Source: Embleya scabrispora DSM 41855 (lineage in GTDB: Bacteria > Actinomycetota > Actinomycetes > Streptomycetales > Streptomycetaceae). From it: a stretch of 64,000 nucleotides of DNA. Position 1 is the first letter of the stretch. The number at the start of each line of letters is the position of its first letter. The notes under the pieces were generated by a model. It did no database searches. It was not told the origin of the DNA and saw only the letters and a list, made by a program, of their open reading frames with translations. Below are positions 52,892 to 63,207 of this stretch, in pieces. Position numbers and translations under genes: made by a program. The stretch is taken from contig NZ_KB889607.1 in assembly GCF_000372745.1 (NCBI RefSeq), positions 62,001-126,000 on the forward strand, in the 5' to 3' direction.

Positions 52892-52984
52892 GCCGATCGG
52901 GTGGGGCTCGGCCCGAGGCGTGCCCGCCGGCCCCACCCGGACACGGCGGTCGGTGCCGTCCGCATCCGTTGGTCGGGGCCGCCC

Positions 52985-53372
52985 GAACGCCCCGATCCTG
53001 GTGGGCTATTCGCTGGTGACCGGCGCGGGCCTGGGCTTCGTCGGCGCGCCCGCGATGTCCTCCGTCTTCGGCTCGGTGGCCCCGGAGTCGGTACCCAGCG
53101 CGACAGCGGCGGTCTACCTCGGCAACCAGATCGGCGGCACCCTCGGCATCGCGATCACCGCACTGGTCCTGCAGAACCGCACCGAGAGCCACGCCGTGGT
53201 TCCCGCCTTCCAAGGCACCTTCGGCTACCTGATCGCCATCGCGGTGGTGGTCGGCGCGGTCGGCCTGCTGCTGCGCCGAGCACCGGCCGCGTCCACGCCC
53301 GCCGAGCCGGACGCGGACGCGTTGCCGGCGGAGGGCAGGCTGCTTCCCGAACCGGCCCGCCAAGAGGTCTGA
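52985..53372 (+). pseudogene. C-terminal remnant of an MFS transporter
   Basis: The frame reads PILVGYSLVTGAGLGFVGAPAMSSVFGSVAPESVPSATAAVY, QIGGTLGIAITALVLQNRT and FGYLIAIAVVVGAVGLLLRRAP: the last three helices of a DHA2-type exporter. The preceding eleven helices are absent. It ends with a normal polar tail and stop. The sequence before 52985 is unrelated Arg/Pro-rich noise, so it cannot be an active transporter. Confidence 0.75.
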
Positions 53373-53623: not shown

Positions 53624-55300
53624 ATGCAGGAAATGGCACACGACCACGATCAACCGGACGGTCATGTTCCGGTTGATCTGCGCAAGAGCCCTTCGGCCGC
53701 GCGGCACGACGACGAACTCCCGGCCCACGACGGACGGACGACGGTTGCCCGGGTGCCGCTCGATCACCCGACGGACCGAGAAGTGACGGACCTTCGGAAG
53801 ACGGACCGTCGCGCGACCGACCAACCGACGACAGGTCGTCAGGCCCCCGCGCGCGCACCGGAACCGACCGGCCTGATCTACGACCTGATCCGCTGGCCGA
53901 TCCGCATCCTCGCGGTGATCGTGTTGTTGCCGATCCGATTGGCCTGGGAACTGCTCAAGGTGCTCGGCCGGGGCACCCGGGACCGGATCCTGTTCCCGGC
54001 AGGTCGGCTTCTGGTGGTGCTGGGACGCGCGCTCAGGTTCGCGGTGCGGAACTGGTTCCTGATCCCGAGCGTGCGGGCGATCCTGGCCATCGGGCGCCGG
54101 CTCGACATATGGGTGTGGGGGCTGATCCTGGTCCCGCTCGCGAAGGGCGTGCGGGTCGGTGTGTTCGCGGTGGGCCGGGGGTTGCGGTGGCTGGCCGTCG
54201 GCGTGTTGTGGCGCGGGCTGCGGCTGTTCGGCCGCTATGCCGTCGTGCTGCCGCTGCGGTGGGTCCGGACCGCGCTGCTGCCTCCGCTCGGCGCCGCGCT
54301 GGTTGCGCTCTCCCGATTCGTGATCCGCGCCGCCCACCTGCTGGGCACCGCGACCGCACGCGCCCTGTACTTCCTTCTCGTGGTGCCCGCCCGGTGGGGT
54401 TGGCGGGCCGCCAGGGTGCTCGGTCGCGGCTTCGGGCGGTGGCTCCACTACGTACTGCTCGTGCCGCTGAAGTGGCTGTGGCGCGGAGTCGTGGCCGGCG
54501 CCCGGGTCGGCCGACGTGGCCTGGTCGTGCTCGGGCGGGGCGTGGGCTTCGTACTCCGGCACGTGGTGCTGACGCCGGCCGGATGGGTATGGCGCAGCCT
54601 GGCCCGCGGAGCCGACCTGATCGGGCGCGGCCTGCGCCTGGGCGCCCGCTTCGGCGCACACGCGCTGTACCTCGGCCTCGTCGTCCCGATCCGCTGGGCC
54701 GGTCGAGGCACCGTGCGCGCGCTGCGGCTCGCCGGGCGCGGCATCGCGATCGTGTTCGAGGTGGCTGTCGCCCGACCGGTGGTCTGGGCCTGGCATCGGG
54801 TCGTCCGCCTCGTCCGCGCACTCGGCCGGGCGCTGCACTTCCTGATCGTGCTGCCGCTGCGCTGGGCCGGCCGCAAGACCGTGCTCCTGGCCCGGCTGAT
54901 CGGTCGGGCGCTGCGCTTGCTGACCGTGGTGCCGGCGCGCTGGGCCGGCCGCGAAACCATGCGCCTGGGCCGATGGGCCGGCCGCAAGACCATATCGGCC
55001 ACCCGGTCGATCGCCCGCGGGCTGCGCTTCACGACGGTCCGACCGGCGATCCGGATCGGGCGCCGCACCGTGCACCTGGGCGGCGCGACCGCTCGGACGC
55101 TGCGCGTACTGATCGGGCGACCGCTGACATGGGCGAGGACGTCGGTCCTGACACCCACCACGCGCGCGATCGCCCACGGTTGGCACGCGACACTCGGCCC
55201 GATCGGCGCGATCTCGCGCACCGTCTGGGCCCAATCCCGCCAGGCCGGCCGCGACGTGCGCCGCGCACTGTCGTTCGGCATGAGGTCGTCCGACAAATAG
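53624..55300 (+). CDS. Arg/Trp-rich amphipathic repeat protein, 558 aa, unknown function
   Basis: After a hydrophilic 75-residue head (MAHDHDQPDG, acidic/basic mixed), the rest is one long set of cationic amphipathic repeats. Each begins with P-x-(R/K)-W-x-x-R, as in VPARWGWR, VPLKWLWR, VPIRWAGR, LPLRWAGRK and VPARWAGRE, followed by R-x-L-G-R-x-L and a short hydrophobic run. Counting from Pro to Pro gives 26, 37, 37, 30, 26, 26, 37 and 26 residues, that is a 26-residue unit often extended by 11. Lys is rare, Arg abundant. There is no signal peptide or enzyme motif. The 11-residue step suits membrane-surface helices. The start is uncertain between 53624 and 53633. Confidence 0.8.
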   Translation: MQEMAHDHDQPDGHVPVDLRKSPSAARHDDELPAHDGRTTVARVPLDHPTDREVTDLRKTDRRATDQPTTGRQAPARAPEPTGLIYDLIRWPIRILAVIVLLPIRLAWELLKVLGRGTRDRILFPAGRLLVVLGRALRFAVRNWFLIPSVRAILAIGRRLDIWVWGLILVPLAKGVRVGVFAVGRGLRWLAVGVLWRGLRLFGRYAVVLPLRWVRTALLPPLGAALVALSRFVIRAAHLLGTATARALYFLLVVPARWGWRAARVLGRGFGRWLHYVLLVPLKWLWRGVVAGARVGRRGLVVLGRGVGFVLRHVVLTPAGWVWRSLARGADLIGRGLRLGARFGAHALYLGLVVPIRWAGRGTVRALRLAGRGIAIVFEVAVARPVVWAWHRVVRLVRALGRALHFLIVLPLRWAGRKTVLLARLIGRALRLLTVVPARWAGRETMRLGRWAGRKTISATRSIARGLRFTTVRPAIRIGRRTVHLGGATARTLRVLIGRPLTWARTSVLTPTTRAIAHGWHATLGPIGAISRTVWAQSRQAGRDVRRALSFGMRSSDK

Positions 55301-55445: not shown

Positions 55446-55886
55446 TTGAATGTCGTCGTGGATACGAATGTGGCGACGATTCGGCGTGTGACGACGGTGG
55501 CGGACGTGATCGCGGCCGGGGACCTCTTCGACGACCCGGTACGTCCGGACTGGGCGGCCCGCTTCCTGGGCGAGGCGGGGCATCACATCCTGCTCGCCTA
55601 CGTGGGCGCCACCCCGGTCGGGATGGTCACCGGCGTGGAGACGACACATCCGGACAAGGGCACCGAGATGTTCCTGTACGAACTGGCCGTCGCCGACGAC
55701 CACCGGCGCCACGGCATCGGCCGCGCCCTCACCGAGGCGCTGGCCGAGCTGGCCCGCAAGCGCGGCTGCTACGGCATGTGGGTACTCACCGAACGCGACA
55801 ACGAGGCCGCCCTCGCGACCTACCGCGCCGCCGCGGCCGACACCGAATCCGACCACGCCATGTTCGCCTGGACCTTCGACACCTGA
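55446..55886 (+). CDS. GNAT acetyltransferase, AAC(3)-I-like
   Basis: A 146-residue acetyltransferase with FLYELAVADDHRRHGIGRALTEALAELARKRGCYGMWV, the acetyl-CoA loop (RRHGIGRAL) in a form shared with AAC(3)-I-type aminoglycoside acetyltransferases, and TERDNEAALATYRAAA at the end. Resistance activity is not implied by this alone. The TTG at 55446 is the longest start; GTG codons at 55458 or 55488 are alternatives. Confidence 0.8.
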   Translation: MNVVVDTNVATIRRVTTVADVIAAGDLFDDPVRPDWAARFLGEAGHHILLAYVGATPVGMVTGVETTHPDKGTEMFLYELAVADDHRRHGIGRALTEALAELARKRGCYGMWVLTERDNEAALATYRAAAADTESDHAMFAWTFDT

Positions 55887-56043
55887 CCGGCGCCCACCCG
55901 TGTCGGGTCGGCCGAATCGGGCACAGATATCCGCGAGCCCGGTCGGCGGGCTCCGGCTCCGGACGCGTCGGCCATCACCCCCCGCAGGGCGCCCGACGAC
56001 CCGGTCGAGCCCCTCCCGACGCCGCAGGAAGCAGGTGCGTGCC

Positions 56044-57561
56044 ATGGCCGAGGTCGTGCGTGAGGTCGAGCGCAAGTATGTCGCGCCGGGCGGGGTCGGT
56101 GTGCCCGACTTCGCCGGGATGTCGGGCGGGGTGCGGGTCGAGGCCGGCAAGACCGTCGAGTTGGACGCGATGTACTTCGACACCCCGGGTCTGGCGCTGG
56201 CCGCGCGCGGAATCACGTTGCGCCGGCGGACCGGGGGCGCGGATGCCGGGTGGCATCTGAAGCTGCCCGCCGGGGTGGACGCGCGGGACGAGGTGCGGGT
56301 GCCGCTGGGCGCGTCCGAGCGGGAGGTGCCGGCCGAGCTCGCGGTGCGGATCCGGGCGTACACGCGCGACGGCGAGCCGGTGCCGACGGTGCGGCTGCGG
56401 ACCGTGCGCGAGGTGCGGCTCGTGCGGGCGGGCGGGCCGACCCTGGCCGAGATCGCGCACGACGCGGTGACCGCCGAGGTGTTCGCCGGGTCGGGCGTGA
56501 CCACGATGTCCTGGACCGAGGTCGAGGTCGAACTGGTGGAGGGTGAGCCGGGGCTGCTGGACGTGCTGGATCGGCGGCTGGTCAAGGGGGGTTGGCGGCG
56601 CGCGGAGACCGCGTCCAAGCTCGGGCACGCGCTGGCCGAGGCGGGCCGGCGGGCCGAGCGCCGGGTGGCGAAGCCGCGTGCCGGAAGCGCCGGCGCGCTG
56701 GCCCTGGACTACGTTCTCGAACAGGTCGACACGCTGCTCGCGTACGACCCCCGGGTTCGGCTCGACGAGCCCGACGCGGTGCACAAGATGCGGGTCGCCA
56801 CCCGGCGGCTGCGCAGCGCGTTCCGGGTCTTCTCGAAGGTGCTCGACGAGCGGGTGACCGGCATCCTGGGCGCCGAACTCAAGTGGCTGGCCGCCGAGTT
56901 GGGTCGGGTTCGGGATCAGGAGGTGCTTGTCGAACGACTGCGCGAACGCATCGCCGCGCTGCCCGCGGAGGCGGTACTCGGACCGGTGGAGGCCCGGCTG
57001 ACCGCCTGGGACGCGCGGCGCACCGCCGAGGCCCGGACCCGCGTCCTCTCCGAACTCGACGGCGCGCGCTACTTCGCCCTCCTGGACGCGCTGGACACCC
57101 TGGTCGCCCGCCCGCCGTTCACCGCCCGGGCCGGCCAACCGGCCCGCCGCCCGGCCGCGGCGGCCCTGCGTCGCAGCGACCGGCGGATCTCCAGGCGGGC
57201 CCGGGTCGCGCTGCGCTCCCCCGCCGGGCGGGCCCGCGACACGGCCCTGCACGAGGTGCGCAAGGCGGCCAAGCGGGTCCGCTACGCCGGCGAGGCCACC
57301 CGCCCGGCGCTGGGCAAACCCGCCAAGCAGCTGACCACGCGGGCCAAGGAGATGCAGGAACTGCTGGGCACGCACCAGGACAGCGTGCAGACCCGCAAGG
57401 CCCTGCGCCGACTGGCCATCGCGGCCCACGCCGCGGGCGAGAGCGCCTTCACGTGGGGGCTGCTCTACGGCGAGGAAGTCGTGTTCGCACAGCGCGTCGA
57501 GACGGAATTCCCGAGCCACTGGCACGACTTCGCCCGCCCCCGGTTGCGCCGGGGGCTGTAG
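56044..57561 (+). CDS. CYTH-CHAD domain protein
   Basis: A 505-residue protein. The CYTH part (1-200) starts VREVERKYVA with the ExExK signature and binds triphosphate or polyphosphate. The CHAD part (about 225-500) has conserved His helices, DAVHKMRVATRRLRSAFRVF and ALHEVRKAAKRVRYAGEA, that bind polyphosphate. CYTH-CHAD fusions are associated with polyphosphate metabolism or granules. ATG at 56044. It lies between the acetyltransferase and the defence-like operon, separate from both. Confidence 0.94.
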   Translation: MAEVVREVERKYVAPGGVGVPDFAGMSGGVRVEAGKTVELDAMYFDTPGLALAARGITLRRRTGGADAGWHLKLPAGVDARDEVRVPLGASEREVPAELAVRIRAYTRDGEPVPTVRLRTVREVRLVRAGGPTLAEIAHDAVTAEVFAGSGVTTMSWTEVEVELVEGEPGLLDVLDRRLVKGGWRRAETASKLGHALAEAGRRAERRVAKPRAGSAGALALDYVLEQVDTLLAYDPRVRLDEPDAVHKMRVATRRLRSAFRVFSKVLDERVTGILGAELKWLAAELGRVRDQEVLVERLRERIAALPAEAVLGPVEARLTAWDARRTAEARTRVLSELDGARYFALLDALDTLVARPPFTARAGQPARRPAAAALRRSDRRISRRARVALRSPAGRARDTALHEVRKAAKRVRYAGEATRPALGKPAKQLTTRAKEMQELLGTHQDSVQTRKALRRLAIAAHAAGESAFTWGLLYGEEVVFAQRVETEFPSHWHDFARPRLRRGL

Positions 57562-57716
57562 CCGAACACCCCTGTCCGCGGCCTCGATCCGAGTGCGGCG
57601 CGGTCACGAGTCGGGCGTTCCGCTTTTGGGTTGCCGGCCCAACCGCTACGGTCGGTCCAGCGCATGGGGCGGGCGCGCGAATGCGCGCACCGAGGGTGTG
57701 GGATGCAGGGGTGGGC

Positions 57717-59246
57717 ATGGACGACTGGCGTTTCGACGTACCTACGAGCGGCAGCAAGCACCTGCCCCCGGATCCCGGGTACATCAAGGGACTGGCCAGT
57801 CAGGGCTACCGCTTCGAGGAGGCCGTGGCCGACCTGGTGGACAACTCGATCGACGCCGGCGCCTCGGATGTCGTCGTGCACTTCCAGCGCAGCGGCGACC
57901 TGCTGACCTCGCTGGTCATCGTGGACAACGGACGCGGGATGACCGAGGCCGAGTTGGACACCGCGATGACCGTGGGCAAGCGGCGCGCGTACGGCGACAA
58001 GGCGCTCGGCATGTTCGGGATGGGCCTGAAGGCGGCGTCCTTCAGCCACGCGGAGAGCGTCACCGTGATCAGCCGGGCCAAGCGGGCCGGCACGGTGGGC
58101 CGGCGCTGGCGTACCGAGCAGGCGCAGGAGAGCTTCCAGTGCGACATCGTCGAGTTGGAGTTCGCCAAGCGTTTCCTGGACCTGTACGACGAATACGTGA
58201 TGTGGAACGGCACCGCGGTGCGCTGGGACGGCGTCCGCGACTTCCCCGCACGCGGCGACGCCGGACAGACCGACATCTACCTCACCAAGACCATGCGTTC
58301 GCTGGCCGACCACCTCGGGCTGCACCTGCACCGCTTTCTCTCCGACGGGCGAATCCGGATCACCATCGCGGTCTCCGGCACCGACGACGCCACGCCGCCG
58401 ATGACCTGGCAGGTCCAGGGCGTGGACCCGTTCGGCTACCCGATCTCCGGCCTCCCCGGCTATCCGCGTACGTTCAGCACCGCCCTGGACGGGGTGGGCC
58501 CGCTGGAGCTGACCGCCCATGTGTGGACGCCGCGCTCCAACGCCGAGCAATTCCGCCTCCCCGGCGGCATCCTGGCCCGCCAGGGCCTGTACGCCTACCG
58601 CAACGACCGACTGGTGCAGGCCGGCGGCTGGCACGGACTGCGCCAGGGCGAGCAGCACCTGTCGCTGGCCCGGATCGAATTCGACCTGCCCGCCGAGTCG
58701 GAACACGCGTTCGGACTCACCGTCAAGAAGGCCGAACTGCAGCCGATTCCGGGCTTCGTGGACGCGGTCGAACGTGCCACCGACGCCGACGGGCGCTCGT
58801 TCCTGGACTTCCTGAAGGACGCCGAGGGGGCGTACCGGCAGGCACGCACCACCACCCGCGAGCGCAAGGCGGTGCTGCCGCCCGGGAGGGGCTTCGCTCC
58901 GGAGCTGCGCGCCGCGATCGAGGAGGAACTCCCGTTCCTGCCCGGCGAGGAGCCGATCGAGGTGCGCTGGGTGCCACTCGGCGGCGACGTGTTCTTCGCG
59001 ATCGAGCGTGAGGAGCGCCGGCTGCTGCTGAACAAGCAGTTCCGCGCCGCGCTGCTCGGCGGCCGACGTGGCGGCCTCAACGACGTGCCGGTGCTCAAGA
59101 CGCTGCTGTACCTGCTGATGAACGAGGCGTTCACGGGTGAGCGGATCGGCCCACGGGTCAAGGACAACCTGGACCTATGGCAGTCGCTGCTGCTGGCCGC
59201 GGTCAAGAGCGAGACCGCCAAGTACGGCTCCGAGGGCACCTCGTGA
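57717..59246 (+). CDS. MutL/MORC-like GHKL ATPase of a Z1/DUF4420 defence-type operon
   Basis: A 509-residue protein. The Bergerat ATP site is plain: N box EEAVADLVDNSIDAGASDV (N43; Asp39 where MutL has its catalytic Glu), G1 box VDNGRGM and G2 box GMFGMGLKAASFS. A transducer-like domain follows, with FGLTVKKAELQPIPGFVDAV and a final NDVPVLKTLLYLLMNEAFTG. It resembles the prokaryotic MORC/MutL-like ATPases described from restriction-modification loci. The ATG at 57717 has AGGGG 5-6 bases upstream. It is the first gene of the operon; its stop overlaps the next start (GTGA). Confidence 0.9.
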   Translation: MDDWRFDVPTSGSKHLPPDPGYIKGLASQGYRFEEAVADLVDNSIDAGASDVVVHFQRSGDLLTSLVIVDNGRGMTEAELDTAMTVGKRRAYGDKALGMFGMGLKAASFSHAESVTVISRAKRAGTVGRRWRTEQAQESFQCDIVELEFAKRFLDLYDEYVMWNGTAVRWDGVRDFPARGDAGQTDIYLTKTMRSLADHLGLHLHRFLSDGRIRITIAVSGTDDATPPMTWQVQGVDPFGYPISGLPGYPRTFSTALDGVGPLELTAHVWTPRSNAEQFRLPGGILARQGLYAYRNDRLVQAGGWHGLRQGEQHLSLARIEFDLPAESEHAFGLTVKKAELQPIPGFVDAVERATDADGRSFLDFLKDAEGAYRQARTTTRERKAVLPPGRGFAPELRAAIEEELPFLPGEEPIEVRWVPLGGDVFFAIEREERRLLLNKQFRAALLGGRRGGLNDVPVLKTLLYLLMNEAFTGERIGPRVKDNLDLWQSLLLAAVKSETAKYGSEGTS

Positions 59247-60295
59247 GCGCCGACCATCGCAGCAGGCATCTGAGCTGCGACGCGCTGCGCGACCACCTCG
59301 ACAACCGGATGCCGATGCTGATCCCGGTCGAGGGCGACCCACCGCTGTACTGGCACCTGGAAGCGGGCGGCCTGCGACCGGCGCTGCGGATCCCGGTCCC
59401 GCCCGGCACGAAGGCGCCGCGCCTGGGGATGCAGGGGATTCGGGCGGTGTGTGTGTTGGACGGGGGTGAGCAGTTCCTGCACGTTTTCATCGAACAGACC
59501 AAGCTGCTCCGTGAGTTCCACATCGTGTGTTGCGAGATCGCGGATCGCATCCAGATGGAGGGCGTCGCGCCGGTGGCGGCGGTGCAGACGACGGTGATGG
59601 CTTGGCGCAAGCTGTTGGCCCGAGGTCGGCAGATGTCACTCGAAGAGGAAATCGGCCTCTTCGGCGAACTGCTCACGCTGATCGGCCTGGCGGCGGCCCG
59701 GGGTTGGCACGCGGCTGTCGACGCGTGGCAAAGCCCGAAGTGCGCCGACCACGACTTCACGGTCGGCCCTTACGACATCGAGGTCAAGACCGTTGGCGGG
59801 CGGGCCCGCGTGCACACGATCCACGGGCTGACCCAGCTCGAGCCGCATCGCGATCGACCGCTGTGGTTCGTCTCGCACATGGTCGAGGAGAGCGACGCCG
59901 GACGCACGGTGCTCGGCCTGATCGAGGGCATCCGCTCGATTATCCGAGTACAGGCACCTGGTGTCCTCGACGACTTCGACGCCCGACGTCTGCTGGTCAC
60001 CGCGGGAGGACACGCGATCCCGCGCGAGCATCGTTGGGCACCGGTCGAAGCCACGCTCGCGTTCCCGGTGGATGCGGACTTTCCTCGACTGACCGAAAGC
60101 ATCCTCGCACCGCTCCCCGAGTCCCTCATGGTGCGCATCGTGGACATCGACTACCGCATCGACGTCGCCGATCTGATCCCCTCGATCGCGCCCTCCCCCG
60201 ACGGACTCGACCACACCGTCGACCTGCGCACGCTCCCGCCTGACGTCGCGTCCGACCTGTCCGAGTCGAACTCCGCTAAGGACGAGCCCCGGTGA
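59243..60295 (+). CDS. DUF4420 PD-(D/E)XK nuclease-like protein
   Basis: A 350-residue member of the PD-(D/E)XK family known as DUF4420. Candidate active-site residues are E142 in EIGLFGELLTLIGLA, D171 in CADHDFTVG and E180/K182 in YDIEVKTVGG, the order expected for this nuclease fold. It starts at a GTG overlapping the ATPase stop by 4 bases and ends overlapping the Z1 gene the same way. In known MORC/Z1 operons it is the probable endonuclease. Confidence 0.9.
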   Translation: MSADHRSRHLSCDALRDHLDNRMPMLIPVEGDPPLYWHLEAGGLRPALRIPVPPGTKAPRLGMQGIRAVCVLDGGEQFLHVFIEQTKLLREFHIVCCEIADRIQMEGVAPVAAVQTTVMAWRKLLARGRQMSLEEEIGLFGELLTLIGLAAARGWHAAVDAWQSPKCADHDFTVGPYDIEVKTVGGRARVHTIHGLTQLEPHRDRPLWFVSHMVEESDAGRTVLGLIEGIRSIIRVQAPGVLDDFDARRLLVTAGGHAIPREHRWAPVEATLAFPVDADFPRLTESILAPLPESLMVRIVDIDYRIDVADLIPSIAPSPDGLDHTVDLRTLPPDVASDLSESNSAKDEPR

Positions 60296-63207
60296 CCGAC
60301 GACCTCGCGCTGCTCGCACTGCATCGAGCCGCCTTCGGCGGCATGGTCACCGGCCCCAGAAACCTGGCGAAGGCGTTGGCCTACCAGGCCGAGGAACACG
60401 GCGGGCCGCTCCCCGACCTCGGCGAGCGGGCACTGCGCCGCCGACTGCACCACGCGCACCCGGACGACCCGTTGCTGATCCTGTGGCGCGACCGGCTCAG
60501 CCGCTGGGACTTCGCCGACGGCGAGACCGTGCCGAACACCGGGGAACGCCGCGCCGCGACGTACCAGGCCCTGGGCCTGGATCCGGCGACCCGCGACCTC
60601 CTGGACCGGCGCTCGCCGTTCGCCCGCGGCAGCGGCGCCGTGGTGATCACCGACGAGAGCTGGGATCCCTGGTACACCCAGGACGTGGCGCAACACCACA
60701 GCCACTACTGGGACGCCTATCGCGCCACCCTGCTCGGCAAGAAATGGGCCCCGGAGGCCGTCGCCGCGCTCGATCGCAACACCACCCGCGTGGTCGAACG
60801 GCTCGCCGACCCGACCTGTGAGCAGCCCTACCAGTCCAAGGGCCTGGTGGTCGGCTACGTGCAGAGCGGCAAGACCGCGAACTTCACCGGTGTCATCGCC
60901 AAGGCGATCGACGCGGGATACCGCCTGGTGATCGTGCTCACCGGCACCATCGAGGCGTTGCGTGCGCAGACCCAGCGCCGGTTGGACATGGAACTGGTCG
61001 GCGTCGAGAACATCTACTACGGCCAGGATCCGGACTCGGGAACCCTCGCGTTTCGCGACTACGACTACCTGGACGACCGGGACCGGCTGGACGGCAAGTT
61101 CCTGCGCCATGGTGCGCTGCCGTCTCGGCTGGGCGGCTTCGACATCGTTCGGCTGACCCGGCATCAGGACGACTACCAGGCACTGCGCCAGGGGCTCAGC
61201 GCAATGGAGTTCGAGAAGGCCGACCGGTTCACTCCGCTGCACGCGCCGGAGAACCTGCACCGAAGTTCGGCCCGGTTGATGGTGGTCAAGAAGAACGCCT
61301 CGGTGCTCAAGAAGCTGGTCAAGGACCTCGGCCGGATCAAGACCGAGCGCGGCGAGATCCCGACGCTGATCATCGACGACGAGTCCGATCAGGCGTCGGT
61401 GAACACCTCGGACCCCAGGAAGTGGGCGCAGGACCAGGTTCAGCGCACCGCGATCAACGGGATCATCTCGGAACTGCTCGGGATGTTGCCGCGCGCCCAG
61501 TACGTCGGTTACACGGCGACGCCGTTCGCCAACGTGTTCATCGATCCGGCCGACGCCGAGGACATCTTTCCCAAGGACTTCGTCATCTCGCTGGATCGCC
61601 CGGACGGCTATATGGGCGTCGCCGACTTCCACGACATCGATTCCACGATTCCCGCCGACGAGCGCACGGTGGCCAACTCGGCCGGTCTGGCCCACGTGCG
61701 CTCGGTCCGGCCGCTGCACGATGACGACGACAGCGACCTGTGCACCGCGATCGACATGTTCGTGTTGACCGGCGCGATCAAGTTGTTCCGCGAGGACCAC
61801 GGCCTCGGCGCCGACCACTTCCGGCATCACACCATGCTCGTGCACGAGTCGGTGAAGACGCATGTACACCGGGACCAGGCCGAGTTGATCAACGCGATCT
61901 GGCGCCGCGCGGGCTACCTCGGCTCGGGCGCGCAGGCACGGCTGCGGCAGTTGTACGAGCAGGACGTGCGGCCGGTCAGCGAGGCGCACGCGGCGGGCGC
62001 GGCGATCCCCGCGTCGTACACCGACATCGCACCGTACATCGGCATCGCCGCGATGCGGATCGAGGACTCGATCGGCAGTCCGGTCGTGGTGATCAACGGC
62101 GACAAGGAGATCGAGCAGCGCACCGCGGACTTCGACCGACAGAAGGTCTGGCGGATCCTGGTCGGCGGCGCCAAGCTCTCCCGCGGCTTCACCATCGAAG
62201 GCCTGACCGTCTCCTACTACCGGCGCAAGACGCTCGCCGCCGACACGCTCATGCAGATGGGGCGCTGGTTCGGGTTCCGGAAGAACTATCGCGACCTGGT
62301 CCGGCTGTACATCGGCCGGGACGAGGGCGGTCGCAACGGCGACCTGTACGAGGCGTTCGAGGCCATCTGTCGCGACGAGGAGGAGTTTCGCGACCAACTC
62401 CGGCTGTACGCCGAACTCGTCGACGGCGCACCGCAGGTGACCCCGGCTCAGATCCCACCACTGGTCACTCAACGGCTGCCGTGGCTCAAGCCGACGGCAC
62501 GCAACAAGATGTTCAACGCGGAGTTGGTGGAGACCCGGTCGCCGGGGTTGTGGGTGGAGCGTTCGGGATATCCGACGAAGGCGGCCGACCTCCGGCACAA
62601 TGTCGGGCAGTTCGGCCCGGTGATCGGCGCACTGGGCCAGGAGCAGGTCGAGCTGGCCTTTCCGGTCGAGGATCGACTGCGTCGGTACCCGGCATACCTC
62701 GGCCGGATCACGAACTCGCGGCTGCTGCCCGTGTTGCGCGAGCTGCGCTGGTCGGATCCGAGTCAGTTCGGTCCGGACCTGGTGTACCTGGAGAACCCCA
62801 GGATCGCCGGTCACATCGAGGATTGGGTTGTGATCGTCCCGCAGCTCCAGGATCCCGATCGTGCCTCGGTGACTTTGCACGGCTTCGGCCCGCTGGCGGT
62901 GGTCAGCCGGAACCGACGCACGGGCACGTTGTTCAACAAGGTCAGTCCTCCACAGCATCGTTACGCAGCCCGGCGAATCGCCGGTAGCGGCCCTTCGATC
63001 GGCGACCCGATCGCCGACGGCCTGGCCGCGCCGCGTCGTGGCTGCCTCCTGGTCTACCCGACCATGGAGCCGGACCGGAACGAACTCGTGATGGCCTTCG
63101 CCCTGGTCCCGCCCAGCAGCGCGATCTCCCCCGATCGCCGCCTCGTCGCCTTCCGAGCCAAGGACTCCTCCCGAGCCGCCTCCGCCATCGTGGCGGCACC
63201 GGCCTGA
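60292..63207 (+). CDS. Z1 domain superfamily-2 helicase-like protein
   Basis: A 971-residue ATP-dependent nucleic-acid enzyme. Walker A VVGYVQSGKTANF (K194), DExx box LIIDDESDQA, motif III VGYTATPFANVFIDP, and motifs V/VI in VGGAKLSRGFTIEGLTVSYY and TLMQMGRWFGFRKNYRDLVRLYI. The family is known as Z1 (endonuclease Z1 domain) and is found only in R-M-like defence loci with GHKL ATPase and DUF4420 partners. The GTG at 60292 overlaps the DUF4420 stop. A strong hairpin follows. Confidence 0.93.
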   Translation: MTDDLALLALHRAAFGGMVTGPRNLAKALAYQAEEHGGPLPDLGERALRRRLHHAHPDDPLLILWRDRLSRWDFADGETVPNTGERRAATYQALGLDPATRDLLDRRSPFARGSGAVVITDESWDPWYTQDVAQHHSHYWDAYRATLLGKKWAPEAVAALDRNTTRVVERLADPTCEQPYQSKGLVVGYVQSGKTANFTGVIAKAIDAGYRLVIVLTGTIEALRAQTQRRLDMELVGVENIYYGQDPDSGTLAFRDYDYLDDRDRLDGKFLRHGALPSRLGGFDIVRLTRHQDDYQALRQGLSAMEFEKADRFTPLHAPENLHRSSARLMVVKKNASVLKKLVKDLGRIKTERGEIPTLIIDDESDQASVNTSDPRKWAQDQVQRTAINGIISELLGMLPRAQYVGYTATPFANVFIDPADAEDIFPKDFVISLDRPDGYMGVADFHDIDSTIPADERTVANSAGLAHVRSVRPLHDDDDSDLCTAIDMFVLTGAIKLFREDHGLGADHFRHHTMLVHESVKTHVHRDQAELINAIWRRAGYLGSGAQARLRQLYEQDVRPVSEAHAAGAAIPASYTDIAPYIGIAAMRIEDSIGSPVVVINGDKEIEQRTADFDRQKVWRILVGGAKLSRGFTIEGLTVSYYRRKTLAADTLMQMGRWFGFRKNYRDLVRLYIGRDEGGRNGDLYEAFEAICRDEEEFRDQLRLYAELVDGAPQVTPAQIPPLVTQRLPWLKPTARNKMFNAELVETRSPGLWVERSGYPTKAADLRHNVGQFGPVIGALGQEQVELAFPVEDRLRRYPAYLGRITNSRLLPVLRELRWSDPSQFGPDLVYLENPRIAGHIEDWVVIVPQLQDPDRASVTLHGFGPLAVVSRNRRTGTLFNKVSPPQHRYAARRIAGSGPSIGDPIADGLAAPRRGCLLVYPTMEPDRNELVMAFALVPPSSAISPDRRLVAFRAKDSSRAASAIVAAPA

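Follow-up and report, generated by a model that had tools for sequence, protein, structure and literature searches.

The window, a 64,000-nucleotide stretch of Embleya scabrispora DSM 41855, encodes a long and strongly basic repeat protein (P0001), and the question raised by this locus is what such a protein binds and which cellular machinery it serves. In the following, G000 is the genome of the window and G001, G002 and G003 are other genomes of the same genus, with L021 and L022 being the loci of the long gene copies in G001 and G002, respectively. The features concerned are as follows.

53624..55300 (+): long repeat protein gene P0001, from codon-position GC and the long copies in G001 and G002 with the same downstream gene order
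53624..53869 (+): polar, low-confidence N-terminal tail, residues 1–82 (AlphaFold block pLDDT 40–51; dN/dS)
53870..53974 (+): N-terminal family module [IV]R-x-P-x-R-I ... P-x-R-x-x-W, residues 83–117, from alignments
54233..55222 (+): phase-locked Arg-striped stretch, residues 204–533, with strict 26/37 Pro spacing from residue 255 (Pro spacings, R/K phase)
54822..54972 (+): DNA tandem repeat with a 78-bp (26-codon) unit, 1.9 copies, 83% matches
55250..55279 (+): C-terminal motif R-D-V-R-R-A-L-S-F-G, residues 543–552, from alignments
55446..55886 (+): GNAT acetyltransferase gene, a conserved neighbour of the long copy (Pfam PF00583, 5e-18; 89–90% identical genes in L021 and L022)
55900..57561 (+): CYTH-CHAD gene of the putative polyphosphate-binding type, its true start probably downstream of 55900 (Pfam CHAD 9e-60, CYTH 1e-12)

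Frame, repeats and helical phase of P0001

The gene lies on contig C47 of an 11.4-Mb genome and comprises an open reading frame of 558 residues plus stop (53624–55300, forward strand). GC at codon positions 1/2/3 is 0.70–0.82 / 0.52–0.58 / 0.87–0.91 in the four 300-base bins of 53801–55000, and less clean in the bin 55001–55300 (0.63 / 0.67 / 0.89). As this is typical of a translated high-GC gene and homologues align, the frame is taken to be translated and a spurious frame is ruled out; codon statistics that speak against translation would have refuted the earlier note, and those found are normal. Behind the N-terminal tail, the family module ends in P-I-R-L-A-W-E-L and is followed by about 440 residues in which Leu, Arg, Ala, Val and Gly are abundant. 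Residues 80–540 contain 79 Arg/Lys against 8 acidic residues. The preference for Arg over Lys, to which the earlier note attached weight, is present but partly reflects genome bias, since R/(R+K) is 0.93 in P0001 and 0.78 in 12 other window proteins.

The motif P-x-[RK]-W occurs six times in residues 80–540 (mean 0.17 and maximum 3 in 2000 shuffles) and its extended form P-x-[RK]-W-x-x-R five times (mean 0.03, maximum 2 in 2000 shuffles), and the strongest identity autocorrelation falls at lags 26, 37, 63 and 11. Pro spacings are irregular in residues 81–255 (11, 11, 22, 23, 23, 39, 10, 1, 34), and run from residue 255 as 26, 37, 37, 30, 26, 26, 37, 26, 11 and 15. The periodic repeats with a step of 26 or 26 + 11 described earlier are therefore present, but span about 270 residues (255–526) and not about 450, with one exception to the strict rule (the spacing of 30).

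The power of Arg/Lys at 3.72 residues per turn is 27.4 (maximum 11.5 in 1000 shuffles), and the phase stays within 40 degrees over ten overlapping 60-residue windows (residues 204–533, about 330 residues; the last one weak), after drifting between residues 84 and 203. At 3.7 residues per turn the main steps lie near whole numbers of turns (11/3, 15/4, 26/7, 37/10), so that the helical reading with an 11-residue step, proposed beforehand, agrees with both the lags of 11, 26 and 37 and the period. In the core (residues 250–460), 77% of the positions within the central 40-degree sector are Arg/Lys, all Trp are placed 50–130 degrees from this Arg stripe (matched by 0/1000 shuffles), as expected of the Trp anchors suggested earlier, and all Pro 110–180 degrees from it (2/1000 shuffles). 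Opposite the stripe, the core has no significant enrichment of Ile, Leu, Val and Phe (0.52 v 0.48; 207/1000 shuffles as high), thus its apolar face rests more on missing charge, together with Pro and Gly/Ala, than on large hydrophobic residues. P0001 accordingly carries an Arg stripe, Trp along both of its edges, and a wide uncharged side with Pro, Gly, Ala and large hydrophobic residues. At the level of sequence, the frame, the repeats, the phase lock and the placement of Trp and Pro are established.

Homologues share this arrangement to different degrees in the placement tests, which outside the core used several sequences in trimmed form (312 residues of P0001, 177 of L021 and 231 of L090). 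Ile/Leu/Val/Phe are concentrated opposite the stripe in L027, L090 and L054 (0/1000 shuffles each). Trp placement is not significant in L027 (189/1000 shuffles) and L020 (139/1000), nor is Pro placement in L053 (355/1000) and L054 (100/1000), and L031 has a weaker R/K peak, which is reached by 13/1000 shuffles.

Homologues and the mre-DUF2344-rne neighbourhood

P0001 has no match in Pfam (to E 1), NCBIfam, PHROG, PADLOC or PDB sequences (to E 10), and a known family is ruled out in these collections, in line with the claim that no described family has this pattern. Among 65 homologues there were two stray weak Pfam matches, one member each, and none matched NCBIfam or PDB. Origin from a phage or plasmid was considered and rejected, as tblastn of P0001 against phages and of L090 against plasmids gave no match. 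No description of the repeat gene was found in the literature searched, as far as its accessible text goes, and no paper there was tagged SCO2600, SCO2601, SCO2602 or SCO2604; the S. coelicolor homologue, if present, presumably falls within the range SCO2600–SCO2604.

The same genome encodes a 276-residue paralogue (contig C69, L020:8512-9342). With their own genome counted, 7 of 41 genomes match with P0001 as the query and 17 of 61 with a broader profile. A short-copy profile matches 43 of 394 genomes of the class (the own genome and one probable tape-measure protein counted), and a Streptomyces-type profile matches 149 of 199 sampled genomes of a large genus (g9) taken to be Streptomyces, the other 50 showing no gene; both tallies are rough, being taken at E <= 0.001 with 5 and 9 candidates scored per genome, respectively, and a few matches of the 199-genome set lie near 1e-4. 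The tape-measure-like sequence (L077, genome G385), a weak match to the short-copy profile, resembles phage proteins by sequence and was excluded from later alignments. Beyond the Streptomyces family (f1), homologues occur in four families (f3, f6, f19 and f20), with a weak match in f22. A contig scan with P0001 alone gave 49 pattern matches, none of which was confirmed. Among the genomes listed, those of Streptomyces in which no repeat gene was detected look smaller than the carriers (several of 5.5–7 Mb), kinship being ignored.

Members of the family are recognised by an N-terminal module (residues 89–108 in P0001; varied in f6 and f20 members), by a Pro grid with coherent R/K phase (26/37 here, 11/16 in most homologues), and by an end resembling R-x-x-R-R-x-L-F-G (RDVRRALSFG in P0001, RDIRRALFG in L027), which is degenerate in the short copies of the genus. 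The position directly before the DUF2344 gene is occupied by the paralogue L020:8512-9342 and not by P0001, which lies elsewhere in the genome. P0001 is an expanded, faster-evolving paralogue of a family that has no Pfam or NCBIfam model. The earlier note had noticed neither how widespread this family is nor that another copy exists near mre/rne.

Over 72 sequences, the commonest Pro spacings are 11, 16, 38 and 12, corresponding to a 27-residue unit with two Pro. The 26/37 pattern of P0001 is a derived form of this 11/16 grid, in which 15 replaces 16 and the second Pro is lost; homologues therefore keep a periodic Pro grid, but in the 11/16 form, and the 26 + 11 rule is confined to the long copies of one genus. 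The refuting condition named in the earlier note, homologues lacking the periodic pattern, has thus modified its claim and not overturned it. The long copy of G002 has many 26-residue steps and DNA tandem repeats of 66, 78, 99 and 165 bp. Within it, the region L022:9299-9616 consists of very regular 66-, 99- and 165-bp tandem repeats with 92–95% matches. These arrays add blocks of 22, 33 and 55 residues and represent recent repeat growth, and the 78-bp array of the window is a trace of repeat duplication. From such arrays in the long copies it follows that repeat number shifts by duplication, in steps that nearly preserve the stripe.

The presumed ancestral setting is seen on contig C69 of G000, where the neighbours, as named by NCBIfam, are in the order mreB, mreC, mreD, pbp2, rodA, radical SAM, repeat gene, DUF2344, RNase E, rplU and obgE ("radical SAM" being the B12-radical SAM gene TIGR03960 and "DUF2344" the gene TIGR03936). 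G003 has the identical order from mreD to rne around its short copy. Downstream of the short copies of G001 and G002 come DUF2344, rne, rplU and obgE, and the approximately 7–8 kb in view upstream of them contain no radical SAM or mre gene. In these two genomes (loci L025 and L026) other genes replace radical SAM/mre upstream, indicating an insertion or a break of the cluster. The paralogue and its gene order are, like the pattern of P0001, established from genome sequence. The mreBCD-pbp2-rodA-radical SAM-DUF2344-rne cluster holds a copy in G000, G003 and, as far as in view, many Streptomyces.

Eighty loci, the best 80 of 344 relatives (L078–L157), were inspected, 79 of them titled Streptomyces and one 'Actinobacteria bacterium OV320'. 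In all 80 the repeat gene is directly followed by DUF2344, with rne beyond it where in view. Radical SAM is in view upstream in 49 of the 80, at a gap of 64–6417 bp, and not in view in 31. DUF2344 is hence the constant partner, and the mre side is often split off by inserts. Mobile elements are reported to insert at a phage attachment site that lies 74 bp from where SCO2606-like genes end (PMC5311408), and such an integration hot spot would explain the variable gap between radical SAM and repeat gene. The mre cluster with the SCO2606 radical SAM gene is reported as present in morphologically complex actinomycetes and missing from many simple ones (PMC4255298). In family f3 (L027) about 4 kb separate the repeat gene from radical SAM, behind which rodA follows, and in the loci of f6, f19 and f20 mre and DUF2344 genes are not in view. 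The homologue of one f6 locus (L072) lies, by sequence reading only, between a ribosomal-protein/truA-like block and type VII secretion (ecc)-like genes. The link to mre is accordingly loose, given the 31 of 80 loci and the short copies of G001 and G002 without radical SAM in view, the 50 of 199 Streptomyces genomes that show no repeat gene, and the location of f6, f19 and f20 members away from mre as far as in view.

Membrane surface, polyanion binding or membrane crossing

P0001 probably lies on the membrane surface. The fuller reading, that of a peripheral scaffold of the inner membrane leaflet made of one very long amphipathic helix and serving the neighbouring machinery, is our preferred but tentative explanation, to which we give somewhat less than an even chance. 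Here, membrane binding, scaffold role and partner are what we infer, and the helix is what the models predict. The uncharged side of the Pro-punctuated helix would be embedded in the inner leaflet of the cytoplasmic membrane, with Trp at the interface on both flanks, and the continuous Arg stripe would face the headgroups and the cytoplasm, where it could bind anionic lipid in the first place and acidic polymers or proteins as secondary ligands. A gain or loss of 11, 15, 26 or 37 residues would hardly rotate the stripe, so that length would evolve through duplication of repeats. The copy taken as ancestral, flanked by the mre wall-synthesis genes and by DUF2344-RNase E, would most likely organise the membrane for that machinery, and the window copy would be an expanded paralogue outside the mre cluster, beside CYTH-CHAD. 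In Streptomyces, MreB serves mainly for spore walls, and growth proceeds from the tips, which agrees with PMC4255298. Judged from gene order only, the most likely partner is the mre elongasome or a spore-wall complex, a tether of the RNase E side being the second choice.

The Streptomyces homologue L090 is predicted by AlphaFold (65 sequences) as a single helix of residues 25–347 (mean pLDDT 77.8, pTM 0.28), with block pLDDT of 74–94 for residues 31–350 and a dip to 46–64 at residues 141–170. For P0001 the model has long helices at residues 84–464 and 488–557 with short breaks (mean pLDDT 68.3, pTM 0.28). These models lend support to a helix and say nothing on the membrane. A Foldseek search of the L090 model against PDB gave no match, which carries little weight for a single long helix.

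The nearest parallels are the helices of apolipoproteins of the A/E type and of alpha-synuclein, which likewise have 11-residue steps and multiples of them, a long amphipathic helix and a phase near 3.7, and in apolipoproteins also Pro punctuation. In contrast to these, the repeat protein is bacterial, has almost no acidic residues, an Arg stripe in the middle of its polar side, strong Trp flanking and a mixed 11/15–16 step, and the searches of P0001 against Pfam (to E 1) and PDB (to E 10) found no sequence relation. Charged single alpha-helix domains of the ER/K type share the very long uninterrupted predicted helix, but in them acidic residues alternate with basic ones and the helix is polar throughout, whereas P0001 has 8 acidic residues in 469.

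A rather unlikely alternative is that of a soluble or granule-bound polyanion binder, where the uncharged faces would pack against each other, in a bundle or coiled coil, and the ligand of the Arg stripes would be RNA, the RNase E complex or, jointly with CYTH-CHAD, polyphosphate. It would account for the excess of basic residues in P0001 and for the constancy of DUF2344 downstream, with rne beyond, among the best 80 of 344 loci, and CYTH-CHAD is a neighbour in two genomic settings. CYTH-CHAD adjoins the long copy in all three genomes of the genus that have one, the genes of L021 and L022 being 82% identical to that of the window, and lies between rodA and radical SAM in 33 of the 34 loci with rodA in view (best 80 of 344). 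CHAD domains bind polyphosphate through basic surfaces, according to a study (PMC6537752) that also describes a compact double helical bundle. CHAD proteins (phosins) are basic and helical like the repeat protein, but P0001 has no CHAD domain by Pfam. The phosin PptA of Streptomyces is a different CHAD protein, encoded beside ppk (PMC8003754).

Against polyanion binding stands the placement of Trp and Pro, which fits an interface, and L090 is less basic, with 42 basic and 14 acidic residues of 349. The neighbourhood also weakens it. CYTH-CHAD is seen at none of the 11 loci (7–17 kb each) from carriers that do not belong to the Streptomyces family, and is mostly retained where the repeat gene is missing. 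Of 15 Streptomyces genomes in which no repeat gene was detected (11 from the 394-genome set and 4 of the 50 from the 199-genome set), 11 have a strong match to CYTH-CHAD on the contig that carries DUF2344, three have none and one has only a weak match elsewhere. In seven of these genomes no more than 480 bp separate the matches to radical SAM and DUF2344, thus the repeat gene is truly missing, and all seven keep CYTH-CHAD. CYTH-CHAD is therefore the permanent neighbour, and it is the repeat gene that is optional. In the genus of the window, CYTH-CHAD was not seen in the mre cluster; the sole CYTH-CHAD match of G000 adjoins the long repeat copy, and its other CHAD gene matches the CHAD part alone. 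Joint relocation would suffice to explain the pairing with the long copy, without shared function. Polyphosphate, put forward earlier as a testable ligand, is hence a fair candidate by recurrent neighbourhood, yet the idea is weakly supported.

A surface-lying helix has also to be weighed against a polytopic membrane protein with many short Pro-kinked transmembrane helices, which is unlikely. Support for it comes from an octanol-scale test, which passes 11 candidate segments in P0001, 12 in the long copy of G002 and 7–8 in each of four shorter homologues, and from the 26 residues between Pro, a membrane-spanning length. P0001, however, lacks the charge-free hydrophobic segments between polar loops that mark polytopic proteins, having no charge-free run of at least 18 residues (RodA 9, MFS control 12, MreC control 1), and its Arg are evenly spread in one coherent helical phase, the strong peak at 3.72 being absent from the RodA and MFS controls. 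As the CYTH-CHAD control also peaks (3.70, power 10.2), the peak alone indicates only a helix. The hydropathy spread relative to shuffles is z -1.0 for P0001 against +3.1 for RodA, the MFS control reaching only +0.6, and the AlphaFold secondary-structure line has long helices and no visible hairpins. Two Streptomyces homologues tested have 2 and 4 charge-free runs of at least 18 residues, and octanol-scale minima are -12.6 in Streptomyces homologues and -13.5 in L031. The Streptomyces homologues are more hydrophobic, and the case for surface lying is weaker there.

The scaffold reading can be extended to a new class of cytoskeleton-associated scaffold, in which a Pro-bent helix of about 300–480 residues with a convex membrane face would run along the inner hyphal circumference beside MreB and mark or stiffen the membrane so as to serve the synthesis of wall or spore wall, while the window copy would have been expanded and recruited to a second, CHAD-linked site; this we regard as a quite improbable extension. 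Of what had been proposed from the window, the helix, the 11-residue step, the Trp anchors and the absence of a described family hold, but polyphosphate is weakened, the 26/37 span is shorter and the pattern is a derived form of that in homologues. A widespread gene between mre genes and RNase E, with an apolipoprotein-like helix whose length changes by in-phase repeats, is a concrete experimental target, and the family would provide a natural series relating step length and Pro placement to helix shape on membranes.

Divergence and surroundings of the long copies

Between long copies, dN/dS is 0.44 (G001 v G002) and 0.65–0.67 (G000 v either), and for residues 1–79 of P0001 it is 0.79 against G002 and 0.94 against G001. 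Three alignable long copies in the genus with these values imply that constraint is real but loose. That the window copy is a relic, a decaying paralogue with no present role, is very improbable: its high dN/dS against two relatives, the cut-down MFS gene just upstream and the lack of a long copy in G003 would fit, but its 558 codons are open with normal codon-position GC, its R/K power is third among the 13 sequences listed (power grows with length), and the same genes follow it in both relatives.

In G001 and G002 a full MFS gene stands upstream of the long copy, and GNAT, CYTH-CHAD and ATPase genes come downstream, arranged as in the window; no long copy was found in the 1650-contig assembly of G003. 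The MFS transporter upstream in the window (52920–53372, forward strand) is reduced to approximately its last 150 residues, and the full-length MFS genes of L021 and L022 have 497 and 493 codons open. Downstream of CYTH-CHAD, the window (57624–63207, forward strand) contains MZA-type defence genes, namely an MzaB-like HATPase (6e-35), an MzaD-like DUF4420 (6e-13) and an MzaC-like Z1 protein (4e-67), of which the HATPase gene also follows CYTH-CHAD in L021 and L022.
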